In this document: positions 6,318-17,449 of the stretch, in pieces
Position numbering within the stretch: the first letter of the stretch is position 1
Layout: each line of letters starts with the position of its first letter
Source of the DNA: Gammaproteobacteria bacterium HGW-Gammaproteobacteria-1
Lineage (GTDB): Bacteria; Pseudomonadota; Gammaproteobacteria; Thiohalomonadales; Thiohalomonadaceae
DNA length: 56,011 bases
Assembly: GCA_002840095.1 (NCBI GenBank)
Contig: PGZL01000014.1
Coordinates: 1 to 56,011 of the forward strand
Reading direction: 5' to 3'
Position numbers and translations under genes: made by a program
Notes under the pieces: model-generated
What the model was told of the DNA's origin: nothing
Seen by the model: only the letters and a program-made list of their open reading frames with translations
Databases searched by the model: none

Positions 6318-7004
6318 TCAGGCCAGCAGGTTCACGCTGCCGACGACGATGAGCAGCACCGCGCTGAGACGCTGTACGCCATGACGCCAGTGGCGCAGCT
6401 GTTCGCGCAGGCGGCTGCCCAGGTAGGCCACGCCGACGCCGAACACCAGGGCCGGCAGTGCGATGGCGCCGAGCCCGAAGGACAGCCCGAGGGCCAGGCC
6501 GTGGCCGGCGCTGGCGGTGGTGGCGGCGGAGAACAGCACCGTGCCCAGGGGGGCGCAGGGGGTCAGCGCCATGCCGGCCCCCATCAGGAACAGGCCGCCG
6601 GGCATCAGCGTCTGCGGTGCGTCGGGACGGGCCATGTGTCGCAGCGGCTGTTGTGCCGGTGCCGGTGCGGCGCAGCTCCTGCCGGAGCGCTGGCGCAGCA
6701 GCAGGGCGAGGCCGACCATGATGGCGGCACAGCCCAGGACCCAGCGTACCGAAGAGGCGCCGGCGCCGTTGCCGATGTACTGGCCGGCGAAGCCCGCCAG
6801 CAGGCCGAGCCCCGCATAGCTGGACAGGCGGCCCAGGGAGAAGGGCAGCACGGTGCGCCAGGACTGGCGGATGCCGCCCTCGCTGGCCAGGAACACCGGA
6901 CCCAGATAGGGCAGGCAGCTGATGGTGCAGGCGCTGAAGCCGAACACCAGGCCCAGGGCCATGGCCAGCGGCAGGGTGACCAGGGTCTGTTCGATGGGCT
7001 CCAT
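6318..7004 (-). CDS. UreH/DsbD-like (TauE/SafE-annotated) membrane protein
   Basis: A 228-residue protein with six or seven hydrophobic segments, of the UreH/DsbD transmembrane-domain group often labelled sulfite exporter TauE/SafE family. The DsbD/CcdA character shows in C26-x3-C30-L-P in the first helix and the TPCAPLGT motif in the second half, with a GGIRQSWRTVLPFSLGR loop typical of the family. Relatives sit beside cbb3 oxidase maturation genes and are thought to act in metal (copper, nickel) or thiol redox traffic. It is the last gene of a five-gene operon, 2 nt after the activase stop. Whether it moves electrons like CcdA or a metal ion is open. Confidence 0.8.
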   Translation of the reverse strand: MEPIEQTLVTLPLAMALGLVFGFSACTISCLPYLGPVFLASEGGIRQSWRTVLPFSLGRLSSYAGLGLLAGFAGQYIGNGAGASSVRWVLGCAAIMVGLALLLRQRSGRSCAAPAPAQQPLRHMARPDAPQTLMPGGLFLMGAGMALTPCAPLGTVLFSAATTASAGHGLALGLSFGLGAIALPALVFGVGVAYLGSRLREQLRHWRHGVQRLSAVLLIVVGSVNLLA

Positions 7005-7006
7005 CG

Positions 7007-7804
7007 CTACTCGTCCAGATACTGGCTGCGCGCCAGTACCGCCGCGCCGTAGGCGGTGGTGGTCTGCGGTTGCTCCGGGATCACCAGTTCACGGCCCAGC
7101 TCGTCCTGTAATGCCGCCACCAGCCCCTTGTTGAGCGCCGGGCCGCCGTCGAAATAGACGCGGTCCTCGATGCCGACGCGCTTGGCCAGGCGCACGGTGC
7201 GGCGCGCAATGGAATAGTGGATGCCGGCGACGATCTCCTCCTTGCCGTGCCCCTTGGCCAACAGGCCGATGATCTCCGACTCGGCGAACACCGCGCAGGT
7301 GCTGTTGATGGTGAGCGGCGCGCCGCTGCCGCCGAAGTGGTAGTCGCCCAGCTGCTCCAGATCGATCTCAAGGTTGCGCGCCGCCACGTCGAGGAAGCGG
7401 CCGGTACCGGCGGCGCATTTGTCGTTCATCGCGAAATTGCTGACGTTGCCGTTGGCGTCGATCTGGATCGCCTTGGAGTCCTGGCCGCCGATGTTGATGA
7501 TGGTACGCACGCCGCCGAAGGCGCGGCCCGCCTCGCAGGCGCCGATGGCGTTGGCGGTGATCTCGCTGATGGAGTCGTCCGCCTCCTTGAACAGCTTGCG
7601 GCCGTAGCCGGTGGCGGTGATGAACTTCACCGCCTCGCGGACGATGCCGTGCTGGGCCAGCAGCGCCTCGAAGGTTTCCATGGCATTTTTGTGGAACGAA
7701 CTGCCGGTGGGGGCGATGCGCGTGCCGACCAGTTTGCCGTCCTCGTCGACCACGGCGGCCTTGATGGCGGTGGAGCCGATGTCGATGCCGGCGAAATAAC
7801 TCAT
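7007..7804 (-). CDS. BadF/HgdC-type ATP-dependent activase (iron-sulfur reductase)
   Basis: A 265-residue ASKHA-fold protein of the BadF/BadG/BcrA/BcrD family. Known members form homodimers with one [4Fe-4S] cluster held between subunits and couple ATP hydrolysis to delivery of a very low-potential electron. Visible motifs: phosphate-1 GIDIGSTAIKAAVV at residues 6-19, GGQDSK at 106-111, cluster cysteines C130 (NDKCAAGTGRF) and C170 (NSTCAVFAES), and adenosine-binding VYFDGGPALNKG near 225. Its ATG overlaps the stop of the HgdB-type gene as ATGA, so the two are co-translated. Single-subunit pairs like this one match both archerase/dehydratase systems and the double-cubane protein reductase (DCCP-R) system; no HgdA-type second dehydratase subunit is nearby, which favours the latter. 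Confidence 0.88.
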   Translation of the reverse strand: MSYFAGIDIGSTAIKAAVVDEDGKLVGTRIAPTGSSFHKNAMETFEALLAQHGIVREAVKFITATGYGRKLFKEADDSISEITANAIGACEAGRAFGGVRTIINIGGQDSKAIQIDANGNVSNFAMNDKCAAGTGRFLDVAARNLEIDLEQLGDYHFGGSGAPLTINSTCAVFAESEIIGLLAKGHGKEEIVAGIHYSIARRTVRLAKRVGIEDRVYFDGGPALNKGLVAALQDELGRELVIPEQPQTTTAYGAAVLARSQYLDE

Positions 7805-9081
7805 TGCTTGTTCCTCTTGCGGGTCTTGAGCGATTCGAGAAAGGCCTCGATGCGGGTGGACAGCTGGCCCATGTCGTCGGGGCTGTAGTCGGTTTCCACG
7901 TACAGCATGGGGATGCCCTGGGCGGCAAGGACGTCGGCGATGCTGCGGTATTCCATCTCGTAGACCTGGCAGCCGGCAAAGGCCTGGTACACCACGCCGT
8001 CGACGTTGAAGTCGGCGGCCAGCTGCAACAGGCGGCGCTGGCGATCGTCGTTGCGGGTGAAGATGGGGCAGGTGCAGGGCTTGAGATAGCGATCGGCGAG
8101 GCCGTCCACCATGTCGTTGAGCAGCCATTCGTCCACCGCGGTCATGTCGTACAGCATGCGGTTGGCGGAGCAGGTTTCGTCGGCCACCACCACGCCGCCG
8201 GCCTCCTCGATGAGCAGCGGCAGCTTGAGATTGGGGAAGATGGGCGGTGAACCGGTGAACAGGATGCGCGGCGCGCGCTTCTGCGCCGCCTGGAAGCCTT
8301 CCGTTTGCCGCGACCGCAGTTCGGCATTGAGTTGCTCCACCGCCTCGGTCCAGCGATCGATGTCGTCGAAGAAGTAGGCGTTGGTCACCAGGAAGGCATC
8401 CTTGCCGAGGAACAGCGCGGGCGCACTTTTGCGCAACTGGTGCAGGGTGCGGAAGGCGGCCTGGGCGCGGGCGGTGCGGGCCATCGCCGCTTTCAGATTG
8501 TTGCGGGTCAGCTTGCGTCCGGTCAGTTCGCGCAGGCGCAGGGCGAAGCTGCGCACCGAGCGCTGCCAGTACAGCCGCGCCTCCTCGCTTTCCTTGGCCG
8601 GCGGCAGTTCCAGATCGTGCACCTTGTAGCCCATGGCCTCCATCATTGCGCTGGCCTTGGTCTTCTGGTCGCAGGTGGTGGGGTTGACGATCAGCTCCAG
8701 CGATTGGGTGTTGGGCACGGCGGCCTTGGCGTGCAGCGAGCCCAGGGTGGCCTTGACCAGGGGACAGGACTTGGCCGGCATGAAGTCGGCGCCGATCTGG
8801 TCGTAGTGATAGGAACCGTTGCACAGCCGCACCGGCGTGGCGCCGAAGGCGTAGATCAGCTCTTCCGGCGCGTGGATACAGGTGGTGCCGACCAGCGTGC
8901 CCTGGTGCCTGACCGGCTCGCCGTGGCAATAGACGTTGCGGAACAGATCATAGAAGTAGCGCATCGCCTGGGGATTGTCGGGAAAGTCATCCTCGATGCG
9001 ATCGAGCAGGGTCTCGGCCTCGCGCGCCTGGCGGCTGCGGTTGTAGGCGGGCGCGGCGGCGTCAGTGGGGGTGCTGTTCAT
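7801..9081 (-). CDS. HgdB/BcrC-type 2-hydroxyacyl-CoA dehydratase family protein (double-cubane-like)
   Basis: A 426-residue cytoplasmic protein of the 2-hydroxyacyl-CoA dehydratase D-component family (HgdB, BcrC, FldC, DCCP). Nine cysteines are present (52, 68, 87, 106, 137, 304, 336, 338, 371). C68 (GTTCIHAPEEL), C106 (KSCPLVKA) and C371 (FAGCQVYE) sit in the positions expected for cluster ligands in this fold. Classical dehydratases need two different subunits; here only one is encoded, beside its activase, the arrangement of the double-cubane cluster protein from Carboxydothermus that reduces small molecules such as acetylene and hydrazine. No CoA-transferase or acyl-CoA gene is near. It overlaps the polyferredoxin gene by 20 nt. 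Substrate unknown. Confidence 0.83.
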   Translation of the reverse strand: MNSTPTDAAAPAYNRSRQAREAETLLDRIEDDFPDNPQAMRYFYDLFRNVYCHGEPVRHQGTLVGTTCIHAPEELIYAFGATPVRLCNGSYHYDQIGADFMPAKSCPLVKATLGSLHAKAAVPNTQSLELIVNPTTCDQKTKASAMMEAMGYKVHDLELPPAKESEEARLYWQRSVRSFALRLRELTGRKLTRNNLKAAMARTARAQAAFRTLHQLRKSAPALFLGKDAFLVTNAYFFDDIDRWTEAVEQLNAELRSRQTEGFQAAQKRAPRILFTGSPPIFPNLKLPLLIEEAGGVVVADETCSANRMLYDMTAVDEWLLNDMVDGLADRYLKPCTCPIFTRNDDRQRRLLQLAADFNVDGVVYQAFAGCQVYEMEYRSIADVLAAQGIPMLYVETDYSPDDMGQLSTRIEAFLESLKTRKRNKQ

Positions 9082-10048
9082 CGTTGTGTCCTTGGTTCAT
9101 GCGCTTGATGAAGCCCTGCTCGGTGGATTCAAACAGGGTGATGCCGGCAAAGGTGGCCTTGAGGGCGCCCGGTTCCGGGCAGGTGGCGACACATTTCAGG
9201 CACATGATGCAGTCGTCCTGCATGATGCGCGGATCCTTGACCTCGTCGGCGATTTCGCGGATTTCCATGTCGCATACCCGGTAGCAGTCGCCGCAGCGGG
9301 TGCACTTGGCGCCGTCCTTCTTCAGCCGCAGCAGCGCCGGCTTGGACAGCAGGTAGTGCAGGGCGCTCATGGGACAGAAGAAACAGAAAAACCGCTTTTT
9401 GAAGAAGGCGCCGCCCAGGAACAGGCCGGTAACCAGCAGGCCCAGCGCCGTCATCACCGTGGTGGTCTTGGTGGAGAAGTCGATGGTCAGTTGGGAGAAG
9501 TCGCCGGTGAACATGGGGATGATCATGCGGCCGGGGCAGATGTCGCAGAACGGTGTGCCCATGTCGTGGGGCAGCAGCGCACCGCCGATGCCGAGGGGGA
9601 TCAGGATCATCAGTGCCAGCAGCAGGTACTTGATCAGGGTGAGGCGGCGGAACTGGCCTTCGGTATAGCGCGAGTAGCGGATGCCCAGGCGCGTGCGCAG
9701 GCTGGTGATCCAGTCCTGGATGGTGCCCAGGGGGCAGACATAACCACACCAGCCCTTGTTCAGCACGAAGAACCACAGGGCGAAGAACAAAAAGCCCTGC
9801 ACCACCATCAGGCCGGCCCAGCCGAACAGGGTGCGCCAGGACATGGCCAGCTGGTGCTGCAACGGCAACAGGTAGCAGATGCCGCCGCGGCCGGCGTCAT
9901 TGAAGCCGCAGGAGAAGGTGGGCAGATATTGCCCCAGGTTCACCGCCAGGTAACCGCCGTATACCAGCAGCACAAAAAAGAACAGCTGCAGCCAGAAGCG
10001 GAAGCGCCGCAGGTCGACGCCGTTGATGGCGTCCCTAATTCTTTTCAT
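9062..10048 (-). CDS. NapH/CcoG-like membrane polyferredoxin
   Basis: A 328-residue inner-membrane iron-sulfur protein. TM helices lie near residues 17-37, 72-97, 138-160 and 198-214. Cysteine pairs C101/C105 (CGYVCP), C168/C171 (CDICP) and C222/C225 (CFFCP) are at membrane faces, and two [4Fe-4S] motifs follow: C249-x2-C252-x2-C255-x3-C259 and C280-x2-C283-x2-C286-x3-C290-P. This is the NapH/NosR/CcoG architecture; such proteins pass electrons across or along the membrane, and CcoG and FtrD homologues act in Cu or Fe handling. The ATG at 10048 is preferred over an in-frame TTG at 10051. It overlaps both neighbours (14 and 20 nt) in the operon, so it is the obvious electron partner for the activase or for the periplasmic protein encoded upstream. 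Confidence 0.88.
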   Translation of the reverse strand: MKRIRDAINGVDLRRFRFWLQLFFFVLLVYGGYLAVNLGQYLPTFSCGFNDAGRGGICYLLPLQHQLAMSWRTLFGWAGLMVVQGFLFFALWFFVLNKGWCGYVCPLGTIQDWITSLRTRLGIRYSRYTEGQFRRLTLIKYLLLALMILIPLGIGGALLPHDMGTPFCDICPGRMIIPMFTGDFSQLTIDFSTKTTTVMTALGLLVTGLFLGGAFFKKRFFCFFCPMSALHYLLSKPALLRLKKDGAKCTRCGDCYRVCDMEIREIADEVKDPRIMQDDCIMCLKCVATCPEPGALKATFAGITLFESTEQGFIKRMNQGHNDEQHPH

Positions 10049-11009
10049 CAAAGCGTACCTCGTGGAAACGGCGCTGACGGCGGCGGCGATAGAAATAGAC
10101 GCTGACGGCGGTCACCGTAAGGGCGAACACGCCCAGCAACAGGCCATAGGCATAGGAGCGATAGTCCCGGGGCGACGGATAGTAGCTGCCGTTGAGACTG
10201 GCCAGGTAACGGGTCGATTGGTACGGAACGCCCGCGGATTCACCATTCCCGTCCACGCTGTAGGCGGCGGTGACCAGGTAGTCCTGGCGGTAGCGGCGCT
10301 CGAATTCGTGCCACGGCGGATAGTAGTCGCGAATCATCATGAAGCTGGCGTGACCGGTATCATCGGTGCGTACGGTATTGCGCCAGCCGCGCGCGGTGTG
10401 CAGGGTGACCTCGGCGCCGGCGACGGGCCGGCCGAAATGCAGCACCTGGAAGGTAACGGTGTCGCCGAAGCCGAGGGTGGTATGGAAACTCTCCGCATCC
10501 ATGCGCTCGCGCACCAGCTCCAGCGGAATGGTGTCCAGGTGGCGCGGCGCCATGAGGCCCTTGACGTGGTCGTGGCCCTCCCGGCAGCTGTGTTTGAGCA
10601 CCTCCGACTTGGCGGCATCGACCTGCCGCGTGCCGTCGCTCACCGATTCCGCGACGAGGTACAGATTGTAAAAGCCTTCGTCCGGCATGGCGAAGTTCAC
10701 GCCGTAGGTGCCGTGCAGGTTTCCGCCCTGGATTTCCTGCACTTCCCCCGTCACCGAGACCAGCGTCGGCATGGCGCCATCGAAGGACGTCACGTGGCTG
10801 GAATTGGCCGGCCCGTCGCCGGAGCGCAGCCAGAGATTTTTGTAATAGACGCCGCGCCGAATCTCCACGGGACCGCCGTGCGAGTGGCGCGTTGCGCCGC
10901 CTGGATCGGGGTGCGGCATGGTTTCCGACCACCACAGAGGCGTGGCAGCCAACGCCGGTTGTGTGGCGCACAGGATGAACGCCGCAAGCAGGCTGTATGT
11001 CAGCTTCAT
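10035..11009 (-). CDS. DUF4198/NikM-like periplasmic protein with C-terminal membrane anchor
   Basis: A 324-residue protein with a signal peptide (1-21, ending PALA), a beta-rich periplasmic region and one C-terminal TM helix (about 285-305, YGLLLGVFALTVTAVSVYFY) followed by an Arg-rich stop-transfer. The middle contains a carboxypeptidase-regulatory-like stretch (VAGAEVTLHTARGWRNTVRTDDTGHASF) as in DUF4198/NikM proteins, which occur with metal-uptake systems. It is rich in His (including a PHPDPGG and RHSHGG N-terminus) and has an SCREGHDH motif that could bind metal. ATG 11009 is preferred because TGGGA lies about 7 nt upstream; an ATG at 11015 is possible. First gene of the operon, 88 nt from the centre of a perfect FNR site. 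Family call is moderate. Confidence 0.7.
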   Translation of the reverse strand: MKLTYSLLAAFILCATQPALAATPLWWSETMPHPDPGGATRHSHGGPVEIRRGVYYKNLWLRSGDGPANSSHVTSFDGAMPTLVSVTGEVQEIQGGNLHGTYGVNFAMPDEGFYNLYLVAESVSDGTRQVDAAKSEVLKHSCREGHDHVKGLMAPRHLDTIPLELVRERMDAESFHTTLGFGDTVTFQVLHFGRPVAGAEVTLHTARGWRNTVRTDDTGHASFMMIRDYYPPWHEFERRYRQDYLVTAAYSVDGNGESAGVPYQSTRYLASLNGSYYPSPRDYRSYAYGLLLGVFALTVTAVSVYFYRRRRQRRFHEVRFDEKN

Positions 11010-11090: not shown

Positions 11091-11104
11091 TTGATCATAA
11101 TCAA
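11091..11104. promoter_or_regulatory. FNR/Anr-type binding site 1
   Basis: TTGATCATAATCAA matches the consensus TTGAT-N4-ATCAA at all ten fixed positions. It is centred about 88 nt upstream of the DUF4198-type gene on the minus strand. If it works as a class II activator site (centre at -41.5), transcription would begin near 11056; I see no strong -10 there. Confidence 0.78.
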
Positions 11105-11462
11105 TGGGCTTGGTGTTGTTGTTGTCGGCTGTAGGTACGGCGCAGAACGCGAGCATGATGCGTGCCAGCGCGTAACCCGTTGAACTTGCAGTGGGACGGC
11201 TGACGCTCTCCCGGAGGGGTGCGGCAAAGCACCTGTCCGGTGAGTGAAATGACGCAAATGTCATTGTATGTGTGACGGCCGTGAAAAATTTTCTGTGCTC
11301 TTGTGTCGGAAAATAAATTCGCTGCGGCATTTGCCGCGTTCCTGTGTCGGTTGGCTCAGGCGCCATGAGGTCGTGCATCGTCGTGGTGAGCCGTATCAAC
11401 GGTTTATGTGTCGGCATGAAATCTGCTATCCCGAACGTCTGTCTGTGGTCCGCAACAGTGGC

Positions 11463-11476
11463 TTGATCGCGATCAA
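11463..11476. promoter_or_regulatory. FNR/Anr-type binding site 2
   Basis: TTGATCGCGATCAA is a fully symmetric match to TTGAT-N4-ATCAA, centred about 125 nt upstream of the TonB-dependent receptor ATG. A class II geometry predicts a start near 11511, with only a weak -10 (TAAGAG, 11498-11503). Confidence 0.78.
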
Positions 11477-11594
11477 TGCCGGGCCTGGCGATGACCGTAA
11501 GAGTGATCGCGCACATGCAGGCGCCGGGTATGCGTTCACGATGGAGCGCGTAACAGGCGATAACAGAGATAACAACAAACTACGGGGTGAAGAT

Positions 11595-13847
11595 ATGCAT
11601 CATTTGCGCAGTGCGGCCGTGCTTGGCTGCTCGTTGTTGGGTGGCGTCGCCTGGACCGGCGTGGCCTTGGCGGAGAGTCTGGGTGTCATACAGGTCGAGT
11701 CGACGACCATCGATGACCGCTTTGAGAGCAAGCGCGGCGAGCCCTCCAATGTCAGCACCATCTCCGGCGAGAAGGTCGATCAGTCGCATGTGGAGAATCT
11801 TCAGCAGGTGCTGCAGGCGGTGCCCGGCATCACCTCCGAGTTCACCAGTGGCGGCAACCTGAAGATTCATATCCGCGGCGTGGAGAATCAGCGCTATATG
11901 GGTGAGAAGCCCGGTGTGGCCGTGGTGATCGACGGCGTTCCGGTGTTCGAGCGCACCGGTGCGGTGAACATCGACCTGGACAACATCGAATCCATCAAGG
12001 TGATCAAGGGCGGCGCGTCATACCTGTTCGGCGACGACGCCCTGTCCGGCGCGGTGATCATTACCACCAAGCGCGGCGCCAAGCTGGCGGGCTATCGGCT
12101 GGAAACCGAGGTCGGCAGTTTCGACTACCGCAAGTACCTGGCCCGGGCGGGCTATGCGGACGACGGGATGAACGCCCATCTGCAGGTGTCGCGCCGCGAA
12201 AGCGACGGCTACTGGTATCAGTCGGACTATATGGCCGAATATGCCGACGGCAAGATGCAGTGGTATCTGGATGAGAGCAGCGACCTCACCTTCGGCTTCG
12301 AGGCGTCCAACCGCAACAAGGACAGCCACGGCTCGGTGGAGGGCGTCACCCAGGCCGCCCTGGACCCTCAGAGCTATGAGGGTCGCGACTATGCCCGCAT
12401 GTTCGACGTGGCGTTGGGCAAGTACTACCTCACCTACGCCCGCGACGTCAGCGACAACGACAACCTGCTGTTGAACGCCTACCAGTTCAACGATCATACC
12501 AAGTTCGTTTCGGCGCCGCAGAACTACACATCCACCGGTGTGCCGGTGACCGATGTGGATGCCTATACCAACGGCAACGACTACAAACAGATCCAGCGCG
12601 GCATCAAGAGCGAATACCGCAGCGCGGGCGAGAGCCTGGCCTGGATGGCGGCCGTGGACCTGCGTGACAACTCCTACCGCAACTACTCGGAATACCTGGT
12701 GGACTTCAAGACCAGTCCGTCGCCGATGTCGCCCGTCAAGTACGCCGGCACGGTCACCTCCGACAACAAGACGCTGGAACGGGTGCAGGCGATGTATGGC
12801 GAGTTGCGTTTCCGTCCGGCCGATCGGCTGACCACGACCATCAACGGTCGCTACGACCATATTGCACTGGATTACGAGGACTATCTCAATCTCATGCAGA
12901 TTGACAAGAGCTTCAATGTCAACTCGTGGCGTCTGGGCGGAAACTACGCGTTGAAGGACAATGCCGATATTTACGCCAATGCCTCGACCGGTTTCCGCGC
13001 CCCGTCCATCGAGCAGTTGTTTGCCGGCACGATCTCTCCCACCGGCAACACAGCCAGCAACCCCGATCTGCGGCCGGAGCAGTCGCTCAACCTGGAACTG
13101 GGCCTGCGCGGTACCGGCACCGTCGGGGGCGTGGGCTGGGATTACGACGTGGCGGTATTCCAGCTGGAGCGCAATGACTACATCATGTCCTCGGTGGGCC
13201 AGTACAGCATCCCGGCCACCGGCGAACAGGCGCAGTACCAGAATATCGGCGGCATGCGCTCACGCGGCCTGGAATTTTCCCTGCGCAGTGACGAGTCCCG
13301 CGATGTCTGGATGACCGTAGCGTACACCTACCTGCGCTCAGAATTTACCGACTACAAAAACTTCATGCTGTTGCTGGGCAACCGTTACCGTACCTATAAC
13401 GCGGACTGTTCGACCCTCAACCCCCTCACCCAGTATTGCCTCCAGCCCATGGACCTGACCGGCAACGTGATCCCGCGCACGCCGGAACACCACCTCAATA
13501 CCTCGCTCAACTACCGCCCGGCGCCGGGCTGGACCCTGAGCGGCGAGGTGGACGCCTATACCGACTACTTCGCCGACGAGACGAACTTCATCCGCATCAG
13601 CAGCCGGGCGGTGTTCAACGTGCTGGCGCGCTACGAGCACCGGTTCGGCGGCAACAACAGGGCCGCGTATTTCCTGCGCGTCGACAACCTGTTCAACGAG
13701 TATTACTACAATACCGCCCGCGGCAGCAGCGACGGTGCCAGCCCGGGGACCGGCGATGTCCCCGACGGTGTATTCAATAACGAAGACATCTCGCTGGTGG
13801 TCAATCCCGGTCGTGTGCTGACCGCGGGTGTTTCGCTGCAATTCTGA
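11595..13847 (+). CDS. TonB-dependent outer-membrane receptor
   Basis: A 750-residue outer-membrane gated channel. Signal peptide 1-26 (GVALA), a TonB-box-like stretch near 28-35 (SLGVIQVES), plug domain about 45-160 with LQQVLQAVPGI, NLKIHIRG, and IESIKVIKGGASYLFGDDALSGAVIITTKR, then a 22-strand barrel ending in the canonical aromatic residue (SLQF). The barrel carries ASTGFRAPSIEQLF and NPDLRPEQSLNLELG. Two cysteines 14 residues apart in a late loop (NADC...QYC) may form a disulfide. ATG 11595 is chosen for its signal peptide and GGTGA six bases upstream. ExbB, ExbD, TonB and a copper chaperone follow on the same strand, so a dedicated energiser and a metal or metallophore ligand (copper is favoured by context) are likely. 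The ligand cannot be read directly. Confidence 0.92.
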   Translation: MHHLRSAAVLGCSLLGGVAWTGVALAESLGVIQVESTTIDDRFESKRGEPSNVSTISGEKVDQSHVENLQQVLQAVPGITSEFTSGGNLKIHIRGVENQRYMGEKPGVAVVIDGVPVFERTGAVNIDLDNIESIKVIKGGASYLFGDDALSGAVIITTKRGAKLAGYRLETEVGSFDYRKYLARAGYADDGMNAHLQVSRRESDGYWYQSDYMAEYADGKMQWYLDESSDLTFGFEASNRNKDSHGSVEGVTQAALDPQSYEGRDYARMFDVALGKYYLTYARDVSDNDNLLLNAYQFNDHTKFVSAPQNYTSTGVPVTDVDAYTNGNDYKQIQRGIKSEYRSAGESLAWMAAVDLRDNSYRNYSEYLVDFKTSPSPMSPVKYAGTVTSDNKTLERVQAMYGELRFRPADRLTTTINGRYDHIALDYEDYLNLMQIDKSFNVNSWRLGGNYALKDNADIYANASTGFRAPSIEQLFAGTISPTGNTASNPDLRPEQSLNLELGLRGTGTVGGVGWDYDVAVFQLERNDYIMSSVGQYSIPATGEQAQYQNIGGMRSRGLEFSLRSDESRDVWMTVAYTYLRSEFTDYKNFMLLLGNRYRTYNADCSTLNPLTQYCLQPMDLTGNVIPRTPEHHLNTSLNYRPAPGWTLSGEVDAYTDYFADETNFIRISSRAVFNVLARYEHRFGGNNRAAYFLRVDNLFNEYYYNTARGSSDGASPGTGDVPDGVFNNEDISLVVNPGRVLTAGVSLQF

Positions 13848-14020: not shown

Positions 14021-14680
14021 ATGACGGTTGAGGATATTTTTGCCAAAGGCGGAGTCGTCGTTTGGGTGCTGCTCGGCTATTCAATAGTGGCGGTGGCGCT
14101 GTTGATTGAGCGCTTTGTCAATTTTGCCCTGTTGGGGCGGCCGCCGCGGGATTTCGAAGGTACGCTGCGGGAGGTGGTGCGCGGCACCGAAGCCGGTTCC
14201 GTGCTGCAAGGCCTGCGCGGGCCGGAGGCCGCCATCGTGCGCGGCATGCTGCAGGCCGGCGCCGCCGGTGTAAAGGACTTGGGGCGCGTGGCCTCGCGCA
14301 TCGGTTCCGAAGAGTTGCAGCGCATGGAGCGGGGTTTCCGCACCCTGGGCGTGCTGGGCAATACCGCGCCGCTGCTGGGGTTGTTCGGCACCATCACCGG
14401 CATGATCAAGGCTTTCATGGTCATCGAGCAGGCCGGCGGCCGGGTGGACGCGCAGGCGCTGGCGGGCGGGATCTGGGAGGCGATGCTCACTACCGGCGTG
14501 GGCCTGGCGGTGGCCATTCCCATCCTGCTGATGCTGCATCTCCTGGAAGGCATGGCCGATCGCCGTGCCCAGTCCATGCGCAGCTGCGCCTCGGTGGTGC
14601 TGGAGCAGATGCCGGGATGCGATGTTGCCGAAGCCGCCGAGCCGGTGCATCACCGCGAGGGGGTGGTGCATGCAGTTTGA
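14021..14680 (+). CDS. exbB: MotA/TolQ/ExbB-family proton channel protein
   Basis: A 219-residue inner-membrane protein of the ExbB/TolQ family, which forms the pentameric channel around ExbD and harnesses proton flow for TonB. TM1 is near residues 12-30 (VVWVLLGYSIVAVALLIERFV); the family core GFRTLGVLGNTAPLLGLFGTITGMIKAF lies near 106-132 (TM2), and TM3 near 152-175 (MLTTGVGLAVAIPILLMLHL). The ATG is preceded by GGAG. It overlaps exbD by 11 nt. Context (receptor upstream, ExbD and TonB downstream) says ExbB rather than TolQ or MotA. The symbol is by family and context. Confidence 0.9.
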   Translation: MTVEDIFAKGGVVVWVLLGYSIVAVALLIERFVNFALLGRPPRDFEGTLREVVRGTEAGSVLQGLRGPEAAIVRGMLQAGAAGVKDLGRVASRIGSEELQRMERGFRTLGVLGNTAPLLGLFGTITGMIKAFMVIEQAGGRVDAQALAGGIWEAMLTTGVGLAVAIPILLMLHLLEGMADRRAQSMRSCASVVLEQMPGCDVAEAAEPVHHREGVVHAV

Positions 14681-15068
14681 AGGGCGCCGCCGCCTGAGTC
14701 ATGTGCCCAACCTGACTCCGCTGATCGATATCGTCTTTCTGCTGCTGGTATTCTTCATGCTGACCTCGCACTTCGTCCGCGAGGAGAGCATCAAAGTCGA
14801 CCTTCCCATAGCGCAGAGCGGCGAACCGGACGACAACGAGTACGTCCAGGTGACGTTGGACGCCCAGGGGCGCATCCTGCTGCGGGATCATTTCATCGAC
14901 ATCACCGAGCTCGAGACGCGTCTGCGCGACGAACTCGCGCAGCATGCCGAGAAAGTGGTGCGCATCCGCGGCGATCGTGCGGCACAACTGGGGCTGGCGG
15001 TCGGTGTGCTTGATGCTGCGCGCAAGGCCGGCGCCGAAGGCGTCGATATCGTGACAGAGGAACAATGA
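14670..15068 (+). CDS. exbD: ExbD-family biopolymer transport protein
   Basis: A 132-residue protein with a short cytoplasmic N-terminus, one TM helix (about 14-34) and a periplasmic domain. The functional aspartate of the family is D20 in NLTPLIDIVFLLLVFFML, equivalent to E. coli ExbD D25 in the proton path. The start at 14670 has a GAGGGGGT stretch upstream within exbB. It overlaps exbB (11 nt) and tonB (ATGA, 4 nt), giving a translationally coupled energy-transducing unit. Confidence 0.92.
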   Translation: MQFEGRRRLSHVPNLTPLIDIVFLLLVFFMLTSHFVREESIKVDLPIAQSGEPDDNEYVQVTLDAQGRILLRDHFIDITELETRLRDELAQHAEKVVRIRGDRAAQLGLAVGVLDAARKAGAEGVDIVTEEQ

Positions 15069-15721
15069 ACCTGCGCGAACGGGGGATTTGGGCAGGCGCT
15101 GTCGTCGTTTCCCTGGGCCTGCATCTGGCACTGTTCTGGCCGGGCAGGATCATGCTCAGTGCCGATGACGGCACGGCACGGCAGCAGGCCGGCGTGACCC
15201 GTCTCAGCTTTCGGGTGATGGAGAAGCCGCCGCCGCCCGCACCCGTACCTGAGGTAAAACCGCAGCCCAAGCCGCCGGAGCCGCCCAAGCCCAAGCCGAA
15301 GCCGCCGGAGCCCAAACCCGAACCGCGTCCGGTGAAGAAGAATGTGCCGGTGGAGAAGATTCCGGTGAGCGAGCCGGAGCCGGTGGAGGATACCGCGCCG
15401 GCTCCGGTGGAAACGGCCGGGGATCCGCGCGAGGCGGAGCAGGCGCGGAGCCACTATCTGGGCCGCCTGCTGGCACACATCGAGGAGCACAAATTCTATC
15501 CCAGGGCCGCACGGCGGCGCGGAGTGCAGGGCGTTATCCAGGTGTCGTTCCTCCTGCATGAAAACGGCCAGGTCAGCGCCTTGGTGCTGGACGATGGGCA
15601 TGAGGTGTTGCGCAAGGCGGCGGAAGAGGCCGTGCAGGCCGCGTTGCCGTTGCCGCAACCGCCCAGTGATGTGGTGTGCCCGTTGCGGGTAAGCTTCGGG
15701 ATGGAGTTCAAGTTGAACTAG
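15065..15721 (+). CDS. tonB: TonB energy transducer
   Basis: A 218-residue protein with an N-terminal TM anchor (about 9-25) carrying the S16-x3-H20 motif essential in TonB, a proline-rich periplasmic spacer with Pro-Lys and Pro-Glu repeats (about 54-100), and a C-terminal TonB domain (about 130-218) with FYPRAARRRGVQGVIQVSFLL, the YP-x-A and G-x-V-x-V-x-F signatures. It connects the inner-membrane ExbBD motor to the TonB box of the receptor encoded upstream. Its ATG overlaps the exbD stop. A PCu(A)C gene begins 31 nt downstream. Confidence 0.93.
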   Translation: MNLRERGIWAGAVVVSLGLHLALFWPGRIMLSADDGTARQQAGVTRLSFRVMEKPPPPAPVPEVKPQPKPPEPPKPKPKPPEPKPEPRPVKKNVPVEKIPVSEPEPVEDTAPAPVETAGDPREAEQARSHYLGRLLAHIEEHKFYPRAARRRGVQGVIQVSFLLHENGQVSALVLDDGHEVLRKAAEEAVQAALPLPQPPSDVVCPLRVSFGMEFKLN

Positions 15722-15752: not shown

Positions 15753-16229
15753 ATGTTGAAGATGTTCAGGCTGGTGATGGTTCTGTTCGCGGCAAGCTAT
15801 ACCGCACTGGCAGGTGCCGCCGATATGGGCGCCATGGTAATGCATCCGTGGGTGCGCGAGGCGCCGCCGACAGCGGCTGCGCTCGGTGCGTTCATGGTGC
15901 TGCAAAATCACGGTGCCAAGCCGCTGGTGTTGGTTGGCGCCGAATCCGCTGCGGCCGGCGAAGTACAGCTGCATCGTACGGTGATGGCGGACGGTATGGC
16001 CAAGATGATCCGTCAGAACAGTATCGAGATTCCCGCCGGTGGACAGGTGGAGTTCAAGCCCGGCGATTACCACCTGATGCTGATGAAGCCGAAGCAGGTG
16101 CTGAAGGCCGGCGACAAGGTGGGGATCACCCTGAAGTTCAAGGACGGCAGCAGCCTGCCGGCCACGTTTGAAGTGCGCGCCGGTATGGCGATGCCCATGA
16201 ATCACGGCAATATGCACAGCGGCCACTGA
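15753..16229 (+). CDS. PCu(A)C-type periplasmic copper chaperone
   Basis: A 158-residue secreted protein with signal peptide 1-22 (GAA) and a cupredoxin-like PCu(A)C domain. The Cu(I)-binding signature H-x10-M-x21-H-x-M is exact: H74, M85, H107, M109. A short C-terminal tail rich in Met and His (MAMPMNHGNMHSGH) may add a second copper site, as in PmoF-like and PcuC variants. Members deliver copper to cytochrome oxidases or other cuproproteins. AAGGAGA lies ideally upstream of the ATG. It ends the TonB receptor block, 31 nt after tonB, which is the best evidence that this block handles copper. Signal, fold and ligands are seen; the copper recipient is not known. Confidence 0.92.
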   Translation: MLKMFRLVMVLFAASYTALAGAADMGAMVMHPWVREAPPTAAALGAFMVLQNHGAKPLVLVGAESAAAGEVQLHRTVMADGMAKMIRQNSIEIPAGGQVEFKPGDYHLMLMKPKQVLKAGDKVGITLKFKDGSSLPATFEVRAGMAMPMNHGNMHSGH

Positions 16230-16297: not shown

Positions 16298-17257
<960 letters not shown>

Positions 17258-17402
17258 GGCAGCTGCTCCTGTCCCATCGGATTATTGTTCGGTTCCGGTG
17301 CTGCCCCGCGGGGCCGTGTCTTGTCCTAGCGCGGGAGTGCGATATCTCACCGGTAATGCGTGCAAAGGATAGCGCCTGTCGTTGCACACGGTAAAGGCCT
17401 GT

Positions 17403-17449
17403 CTTATATATGGCCATGCTGGGGTCCCGACCGCCTTGACAGGGATCAA
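17403..17449 (-). promoter_or_regulatory. FNR-like site and -10 upstream of the sigma-54 activator
   Basis: TTGACAGGGATCAA (17436-17449) matches the FNR consensus at nine of ten positions. Reading the minus strand, TATATA/TATAAG (17410-17403) lies where a class II promoter's -10 should be, putting the site centre about 43-46 nt upstream of the start. This would give an mRNA leader of about 140 nt. Confidence 0.5.

Follow-up and report, generated by a model that had tools for sequence, protein, structure and literature searches.

FNR-type boxes at a TonB receptor and double-cubane reductase locus with a probable role in metal acquisition

Two perfect FNR-type boxes lie in the divergent gap between a TonB receptor gene and an operon for iron-sulfur proteins within a 56,011-nt stretch of gammaproteobacterial DNA (hereafter, the window), and a third box lies upstream of a sigma-54 activator gene in the same window. 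On balance, and in the main lines of the argument, we favour the view that the boxes are working operators of an FNR-type regulator that would make a locus for reductive metal acquisition part of the anaerobic, denitrifying programme. FNR-type boxes as such are the ordinary part of this finding; the unusual part is the set of genes that they would control, together with a probable second regulatory tier. The whole analysis was computational.

The boxes and their conservation

Exact matches to TTGATNNNNATCAA (TTGAT-N4-ATCAA) occur only twice in the window, and both are the sites that the first-pass annotation had reported as perfect FNR-consensus sites. Box 1 (TTGATCATAATCAA, 11091..11104, minus strand, on which it reads TTGATTATGATCAA) is centred 88.5 nt upstream of the ATG at 11009 that begins the DUF4198-NapH-DCCP operon, and box 2 (TTGATCGCGATCAA, 11463..11476, plus strand) is centred 125.5 nt upstream of the ATG at 11595 of the TonB receptor gene. 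Recomputation gave the same 372 nt between them, start to start, within a gap of 585 nt between the two likely ATG codons, with one box for each divergent gene. A start of the minus-strand gene at 11516, which would give a long ORF of 493 aa and place both boxes inside it, was rejected in favour of the signal-peptide-like MKLTYSLLAAFILCATQPALA seen by inspection at 11009.

The annotation had called a chance origin very unlikely, and the statistics agree. One hundred dinucleotide shuffles of the window yielded a mean of 0.02 perfect sites and never two (0/100), and the Poisson probability of two perfect sites in 585 nt is ∼1e-6 at the genomic rate (ten perfect sites in 4,232,253 nt on 70 contigs) and ∼2e-8 at the shuffle rate, both values being post hoc for a region chosen after the sites had been seen.

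The first-pass annotation missed a third site. Four sites in the window have at most one mismatch, and one of the two extra ones has counterparts in relatives: box 3 (TTGATCCCTGTCAA, 17436..17449, minus strand, one mismatch) lies upstream of the sigma-54 activator gene (16298..17257, minus strand). A candidate -10 element, CATATA (17407..17412, minus strand), follows it at 23 nt, about class II spacing; at 22–23 nt after the corresponding box, CATAT is present in three of four genus members and CTTAT in G015. The activator gene is convergent to the receptor-ExbB-ExbD-TonB-PCuAC genes, and its 319-aa product is 93–94% identical within the genus. The domain scan of this protein found an AAA+ domain (PF00158, from residue 12) and a Fis HTH (PF02954) only, and no sensor domain. 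In the leader of the gene (17365-17399, minus strand), conserved stretches near GGCCTTTACCG and GGCGCTATCCTT are recognizable in all four genus members.

The genus set comprised the genome itself and four others contained in the family search. The locus is present in the genome itself and in G014, G015 and G017, where the same layout is maintained with PCuAC and the activator included; DCCP matches were obtained in 9 of the 20 genomes of the family search, and G016 (84% complete) gave none. All four locus-bearing members keep the receptor-side box (perfect in the genome itself, G014 and G017, one mismatch in G015) and the activator-gene box (perfect in G014, one mismatch in the genome itself, G015 and G017), and three of the four keep the DUF4198-side box (perfect in the genome itself, one mismatch in G014 and G017, lost in G015). 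Mean identity among the genus members is 0.43 over the 585-nt gap, 0.71 for box 1, 0.76 for box 2 and 0.71 for both of the -24/-12-like elements discussed below; the positions of boxes 1 and 2 rank 12 and 7, respectively, by identity among the 571 14-nt windows of the gap. Its conserved islands are box 1 with its border, 11152-11167, 11412-11427, box 2 and the start region of the receptor gene. Between the two boxes there are also a perfect palindrome, GCGGCATTTGCCGC (11324-11337), and three copies of TGTGTCGG (at 11302, 11343 and 11408), all of them possible further operators.

For loci outside the genus, 117 regions taken upstream of receptor or DUF4198 matches (each up to 350 nt long, placed from tblastn match ends) contained three with a site of at most one mismatch, against 3.35 expected, and none with a perfect site; this set includes distantly similar receptors and phyla that may not use the TTGAT-N4-ATCAA box, and counts three genomes twice (L038/L121, L039/L072 and L040/L076). 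The expectation, like those given below for -24/-12 elements, comes from first-order Markov samples and not from exact shuffles.

Regulator and promoter architecture

Of the eight perfect boxes elsewhere in the genome, three lie upstream of norC, nirS and nosZ (norC and nirS were named by recognition of their translations, nosZ also by search). Ten Crp/Fnr proteins of the genome exceed the Pfam HTH cut-off, and five were scanned against NCBIfam. Only L012 among these five passes the Fnr model (308 bits, cut-off 228); it has the canonical FNR features C-x2-C-x5-C, a fourth cysteine and ETVSR, corresponding to the E-x2-S-R helix. L015 and L020 gave their best scores, below cut-off, with an FtrB-like model. 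FNR-type control is well supported by the conservation in the genus, the boxes at norC, nirS and nosZ and the FNR protein in the genome, and we are confident that an FNR-type regulator, FNR or DNR, controls the locus. Most likely this is the canonical FNR of the genome, possibly with a DNR-type NO sensor. The first-pass prediction that oxygen controls both transcription units is well supported as regards the type of regulator, whereas an oxygen-specific signal and direct activation exceed the evidence; control by NO, or by FNR and DNR jointly, is possible instead. The shared box core, the boxes at norC, nirS and nosZ and the canonical FNR are as in the FNR/ANR and DNR regulons of denitrifying Proteobacteria; what differs from those regulons is that the box here also covers the TonB/double-cubane locus and the sigma-54 activator gene.

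Two candidate sigma-54 promoter elements lie between the boxes. TGGCACGCATCATGCT (11152..11167, minus strand), with one mismatch to TGGCAC-N5-TTGCW and 0.02 such matches expected per gap, faces the DUF4198 operon; G014 carries a counterpart with one mismatch, G015 one with two, and in G017 the only match, itself with two mismatches, adjoins box 1. The weak candidate CGGCATGAAATCTGCT (11412..11427, plus strand) faces the receptor gene and has the form GG-N10-GC; with three mismatches and ∼0.75 expected per gap it is not significant alone. Its GG-N10-GC is kept in all four genus members, 50–53 nt upstream of box 2 (start to start). This second element could instead be an operator, and reads as a palindrome-like GCATGAATCATGC in relatives. 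The genome has rpoN, and the conservation of the -24/-12-like elements suggests a sigma-54 tier in a feed-forward loop. L159, a locus of a different family that has a related activator, showed no -24/-12 element with two or fewer mismatches in the gap ahead of its DUF4198 operon. As for sigma-70 promoters, the best -10 matches at class II spacing are 3/6 for both divergent boxes, a score reached by ∼27% of random places; the norC and nirS boxes of the same genome have matches of 5/6 and 4/6. Because the boxes of the gap lie downstream of the predicted sigma-54 starts, separate sigma-70 activation and blocking are both possible, and FNR bound there might act as an activator, supplement sigma-54 transcription or block it.

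How the boxes act, and through which protein, can be read in other ways. The DNR consensus, CTTGATnnnnATCAAG, has the same core as that of FNR and lies upstream of most denitrification genes (PMC1274295, in excerpt), and in P. aeruginosa the sites of Anr and Dnr overlap (PMC12403760, in excerpt), so that the core does not distinguish FNR from DNR. It is conceivable, though we suggest it only tentatively, that the boxes are instead targets of an NO-responsive regulator of the DNR type and that NO arising in denitrification, not lack of oxygen as such, turns the locus on. The common core, the same box ahead of nirS, norC and nosZ and the G right flank that the activator-gene boxes (4/4) share with those three promoters fit such a regulator; the right flank is G, however, in only one of the seven divergent boxes (the receptor-side box of G017), and the only model that any of the five scanned regulators passed was that of FNR, the NCBIfam models listed including none named DNR. 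We think it unlikely that FNR has a blocking, not an activating, effect at the two divergent boxes, giving an incoherent loop with boxes downstream of predicted sigma-54 starts. The order of -24/-12 element and then box on both sides of the gap, the receptor-side spacing shared by four of four members and the weak -10 elements would suit blocking, but the sigma-54 starts are predictions only, and the better -10 matches at norC and nirS point to an activating layout in use in this genome. That the boxes are chance or decayed sites with no function is very improbable: box 1 has been lost in G015 and there is no excess of boxes outside the genus, but chance origin was rejected on the shuffle and genome statistics and the conservation in the genus, and the third box also counts against it.

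Genes of the locus and a model of their action

The name 'iron-sulfur operon' used in the first-pass annotation is correct but incomplete, as the minus-strand genes encode a DCCP with its activase and NapH-like, DUF4198-like and DsbD_2 proteins. The first gene from the gap encodes a DUF4198-like protein (10035..11009), probably periplasmic with a C-terminal membrane anchor. It is followed by genes for a NapH/CcoG-like membrane 4Fe-4S protein (9062..10051; Fer4_5 and Fer4_10, with NapH families below their cut-offs), a double-cubane cluster reductase, DCCP (7801..9081; NF040772, 364.3 bits, cut-off 350), an ATP-dependent activase of the BcrAD/BadFG type (7007..7804; PF01869, 181 bits; TIGR00241, 243 bits, over cut-off) and a DsbD_2 family membrane protein (6318..7004; PF13386, 86.5 bits). 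The activase start, an ATG at residue 30 of the translation, overlaps the DCCP stop. On the plus strand are the TonB-dependent receptor (11595..13847; PF00593, PF07715), ExbB (14021..14680; PF01618), ExbD (14616..15068; PF02472), TonB (15065..15721; PF03544) and a PCu(A)C copper chaperone (15753..16229; PF04314, 130.5 bits), the last being kept in all four locus-bearing genus members. The receptor matched 22 NCBIfam models, none over its cut-off, and none of the 22 is a copper-receptor model.

With PF10670 the DUF4198-like protein scores 25.1 bits, short of the Pfam gathering cut-off of 34, yet its predicted model (pLDDT 89.4) appears to have the fold of a solved member of the family: it matches Zcp (Z 18.7, 2.9 Å over 204 residues) and the Ni-bound DUF4198 protein 9gcb (Z 15.5 over 188 residues). 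The predicted fold is thus that of Zcp and the Ni-binding Ideonella protein, and its TonB receptor neighbourhood is a further feature in common with the group formed by these two and the iron-linked DUF4198 proteins of Caulobacter. It differs from known DUF4198 proteins in its score below the Pfam cut-off and in the absence, on inspection, of the mature N-terminal His of the published Ni site (the mature start is likely near ATPLWW); its homologues, unlike them, carry Met/His-rich, NosL-type and 4Fe-4S parts.

In the NapH-like protein C48, C59 and Q65-H66 are conserved. They belong to a motif, C-x(9-10)-C ... QH, that follows the first membrane helix and is common to the NapH proteins of both types of locus described below (11/11 aligned); on the predicted topology it is a candidate metal or redox site. 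The cupric reductase CcoG is the same broad kind of membrane 4Fe-4S protein and is likewise found near copper-handling genes. A periplasmic Ig-like domain is part of CcoG (PMC7558416, in part), whereas the beta-sandwich partner here is the separate DUF4198-like protein; the NapH-like protein also has its own C48/C59/QH loop motif.

The DCCP matches 7yyl and 6eno in sequence (residues 33-419), and seven of its cysteines align with cysteines of 7yyl that we take to be cluster ligands there. Sequence match, conserved cysteines and an adjacent activase gene are as in those systems of double-cubane protein and activator, and the linkage to a TonB receptor and a NapH-like protein sets the DCCP apart from them. 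To our knowledge, the natural, cellular function of double-cubane reductases is open. In the open-access literature searched we found no published tie of a double-cubane protein or 2-hydroxyacyl-CoA dehydratase to a TonB receptor or NapH, which is no proof of absence; PMC12491067, on a double-cubane cluster protein, mentions neither TonB nor NapH.

We propose that, when oxygen is lacking, FNR would bind the three boxes, one at the gene of the sensor-less sigma-54 activator and two in the divergent gap, and that the activator with sigma-54 would then fire the -24/-12 elements of both divergent operons, completing a feed-forward loop. The metal in short supply, probably copper destined for N2O reductase, would cross the outer membrane through the receptor, powered by TonB-ExbBD, and be held on the DUF4198-like protein. 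It would be reduced by electrons passing through the NapH-like protein and then handed on, with PCuAC as the presumed acceptor, and the DCCP/activase pair might add ATP-driven, low-potential electrons.

The module in other genomes and the metal

Loci of this kind were found with a NapH profile, their gene content being scored by tblastn with the window proteins. At least 70 were obtained, several of which end at contig ends; among the 70 listed, NapH is present in 70, DCCP in 68, DUF4198 in 66, the activase in 62, DsbD2 in 55 and the receptor in 54. Record titles assign the loci listed to Gamma-, Beta- and Alphaproteobacteria, Campylobacterota, Bacteroidota, Spirochaetia and Desulfobacterales. 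Judged by gene content, the TonB receptor with DUF4198-NapH-DCCP-activase-DsbD2 is a module present in several phyla. A second type, which lacks DCCP and consists of a receptor, a DUF4198-like protein, a distant NapH, DsbD2 and ExbBD, occurs in other genomes.

That the locus serves metal acquisition of some kind is fairly probable; for copper in particular we put the chances at about even. The case for reductive acquisition of a metal, probably copper, is built on NosL fusion, linkage to and co-occurrence with nosZ, PCuAC, Met/His-rich partners and a metal-binding fold. Long DUF4198 proteins (750–920 aa) occur in 26 of the loci listed, nearly all titled Campylobacterota. Both of the two that were scanned with Pfam carry a Fer4_5 4Fe-4S membrane domain, and one also carries NosL; by tblastn, a NosL-type stretch is present in the DUF4198 protein of ten loci titled Campylobacterota. 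These NosL-carrying loci are L073, L075, L077, L078, L084, L086, L088, L089, L098 and L115; the Pfam-scanned L078 combines the 4Fe-4S membrane domain, NosL and a weak DUF4198 match in one protein. Six DUF4198 proteins from Betaproteobacteria and methanotrophs were inspected; stretches rich in Met and His are present in the four from Betaproteobacteria. PCuAC is found in the window and in L159, L066 and L059. The DCCP-type locus L066 shares a 14-kb stretch with nosZ and Sco-, PCuAC- and NosL-like genes, and at L157 a cluster without DCCP is situated upstream of nos genes. Gene labels at L157 come from translations and from tblastn with window proteins, Sco, NosD and NosL in the nos region being named by recognition.

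In a class sample of 369 genomes, nosZ was present in 11 of 14 with a module-type NapH and in 52 of 355 without; the 14 include the distant DCCP-less type, the DCCP type amounting to five genomes, all with nosZ, and the Fisher tests applied ignore relatedness. Copper demand as a universal correlate was rejected: 28 of 50 genomes searched, taken from 50 of the 70 listed loci, have nosZ, and of the 22 in which it was not found two have pMMO and 20 gave neither.

A TonB receptor tied to denitrification also recalls the TonB-dependent copper receptors NosA and OprC. NosA has been linked to the copper supply of NosZ and OprC expression is raised anaerobically with nitrate (both from excerpts of PMC7558416), and nosA belongs to the NnrR regulon of Brucella (excerpt of PMC1274295). 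The receptor in the window differs from these in that NCBIfam did not score it as a copper receptor and in its company of NapH, DUF4198 and DCCP.

Known DUF4198 proteins bring other metals into question. It is rather unlikely, in our judgement, that the locus is a reductive importer of iron, a parallel to the PepSY/DUF2271/DUF4198 systems of ferric reduction. In Caulobacter the DUF4198 genes are under Fur control and have been tied to iron: one is next to a TonB receptor, and one is in a PepSY operon for which a role in ferric reduction has been proposed (PMC3751524 and PMC11870441, both in excerpt; Fnr appears in the former as a comparison, its DUF4198 genes being Fur-regulated), and the best sub-threshold NCBIfam matches of the window receptor are siderophore and hemin receptors. 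Iron is opposed by the NosL-type fusions, PCuAC, the Met-rich stretches and the linkage to and co-occurrence with nosZ. Ferrous iron is soluble without oxygen, and for this reason anaerobic induction fits iron less well. We are still more doubtful of nickel (or zinc or cobalt), taken up for example for an anaerobic nickel enzyme. Nickel uptake needs no redox partner, which counts against it, as do the missing N-terminal His and the NosL-type fusion, PCuAC and nosZ linkage, all of which favour copper. It draws support from the predicted fold matches to Zcp and the Ni-bound protein and from the Ideonella DUF4198 protein, which binds Ni with nM affinity through a site that uses its N-terminal His, and whose gene lies near those of TonB receptors and NikR; a solved DUF4198 protein prefers Ni over Cu (PMC12537917, for the part consulted).

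How much copper is available limits the final step of denitrification and so bears on the release of N2O. If the proposed explanation is right, the locus would offer a reductive uptake route and a testable role for orphan double-cubane reductases. The regulatory finding is an entry point, with oxygen- or NO-controlled expression, three boxes and one small activator gene. More speculatively, we may be dealing with an apparently undescribed, phylum-spanning system for anaerobic acquisition of a metal (copper), in which receptor, DUF4198 and NapH are coupled to an ATP-driven DCCP that energizes reduction of the imported copper for N2O reductase and other copper enzymes, wired here to denitrification by a feed-forward loop from FNR through the sigma-54 activator.

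A neighbourhood like that of the window also occurs without DCCP. In the different family that contains L159 (G033:C30), the order is activator-PCuAC-TonB-DsbD2-NapH-DUF4198, beside folD. The genome itself has a second receptor-DUF4198-NapH set, at G000:C31:93447-97799 (L162:5448-9800), which has no DCCP; its NapH is 73% identical to that of the window, and in the genome search its frame contained one TAG.
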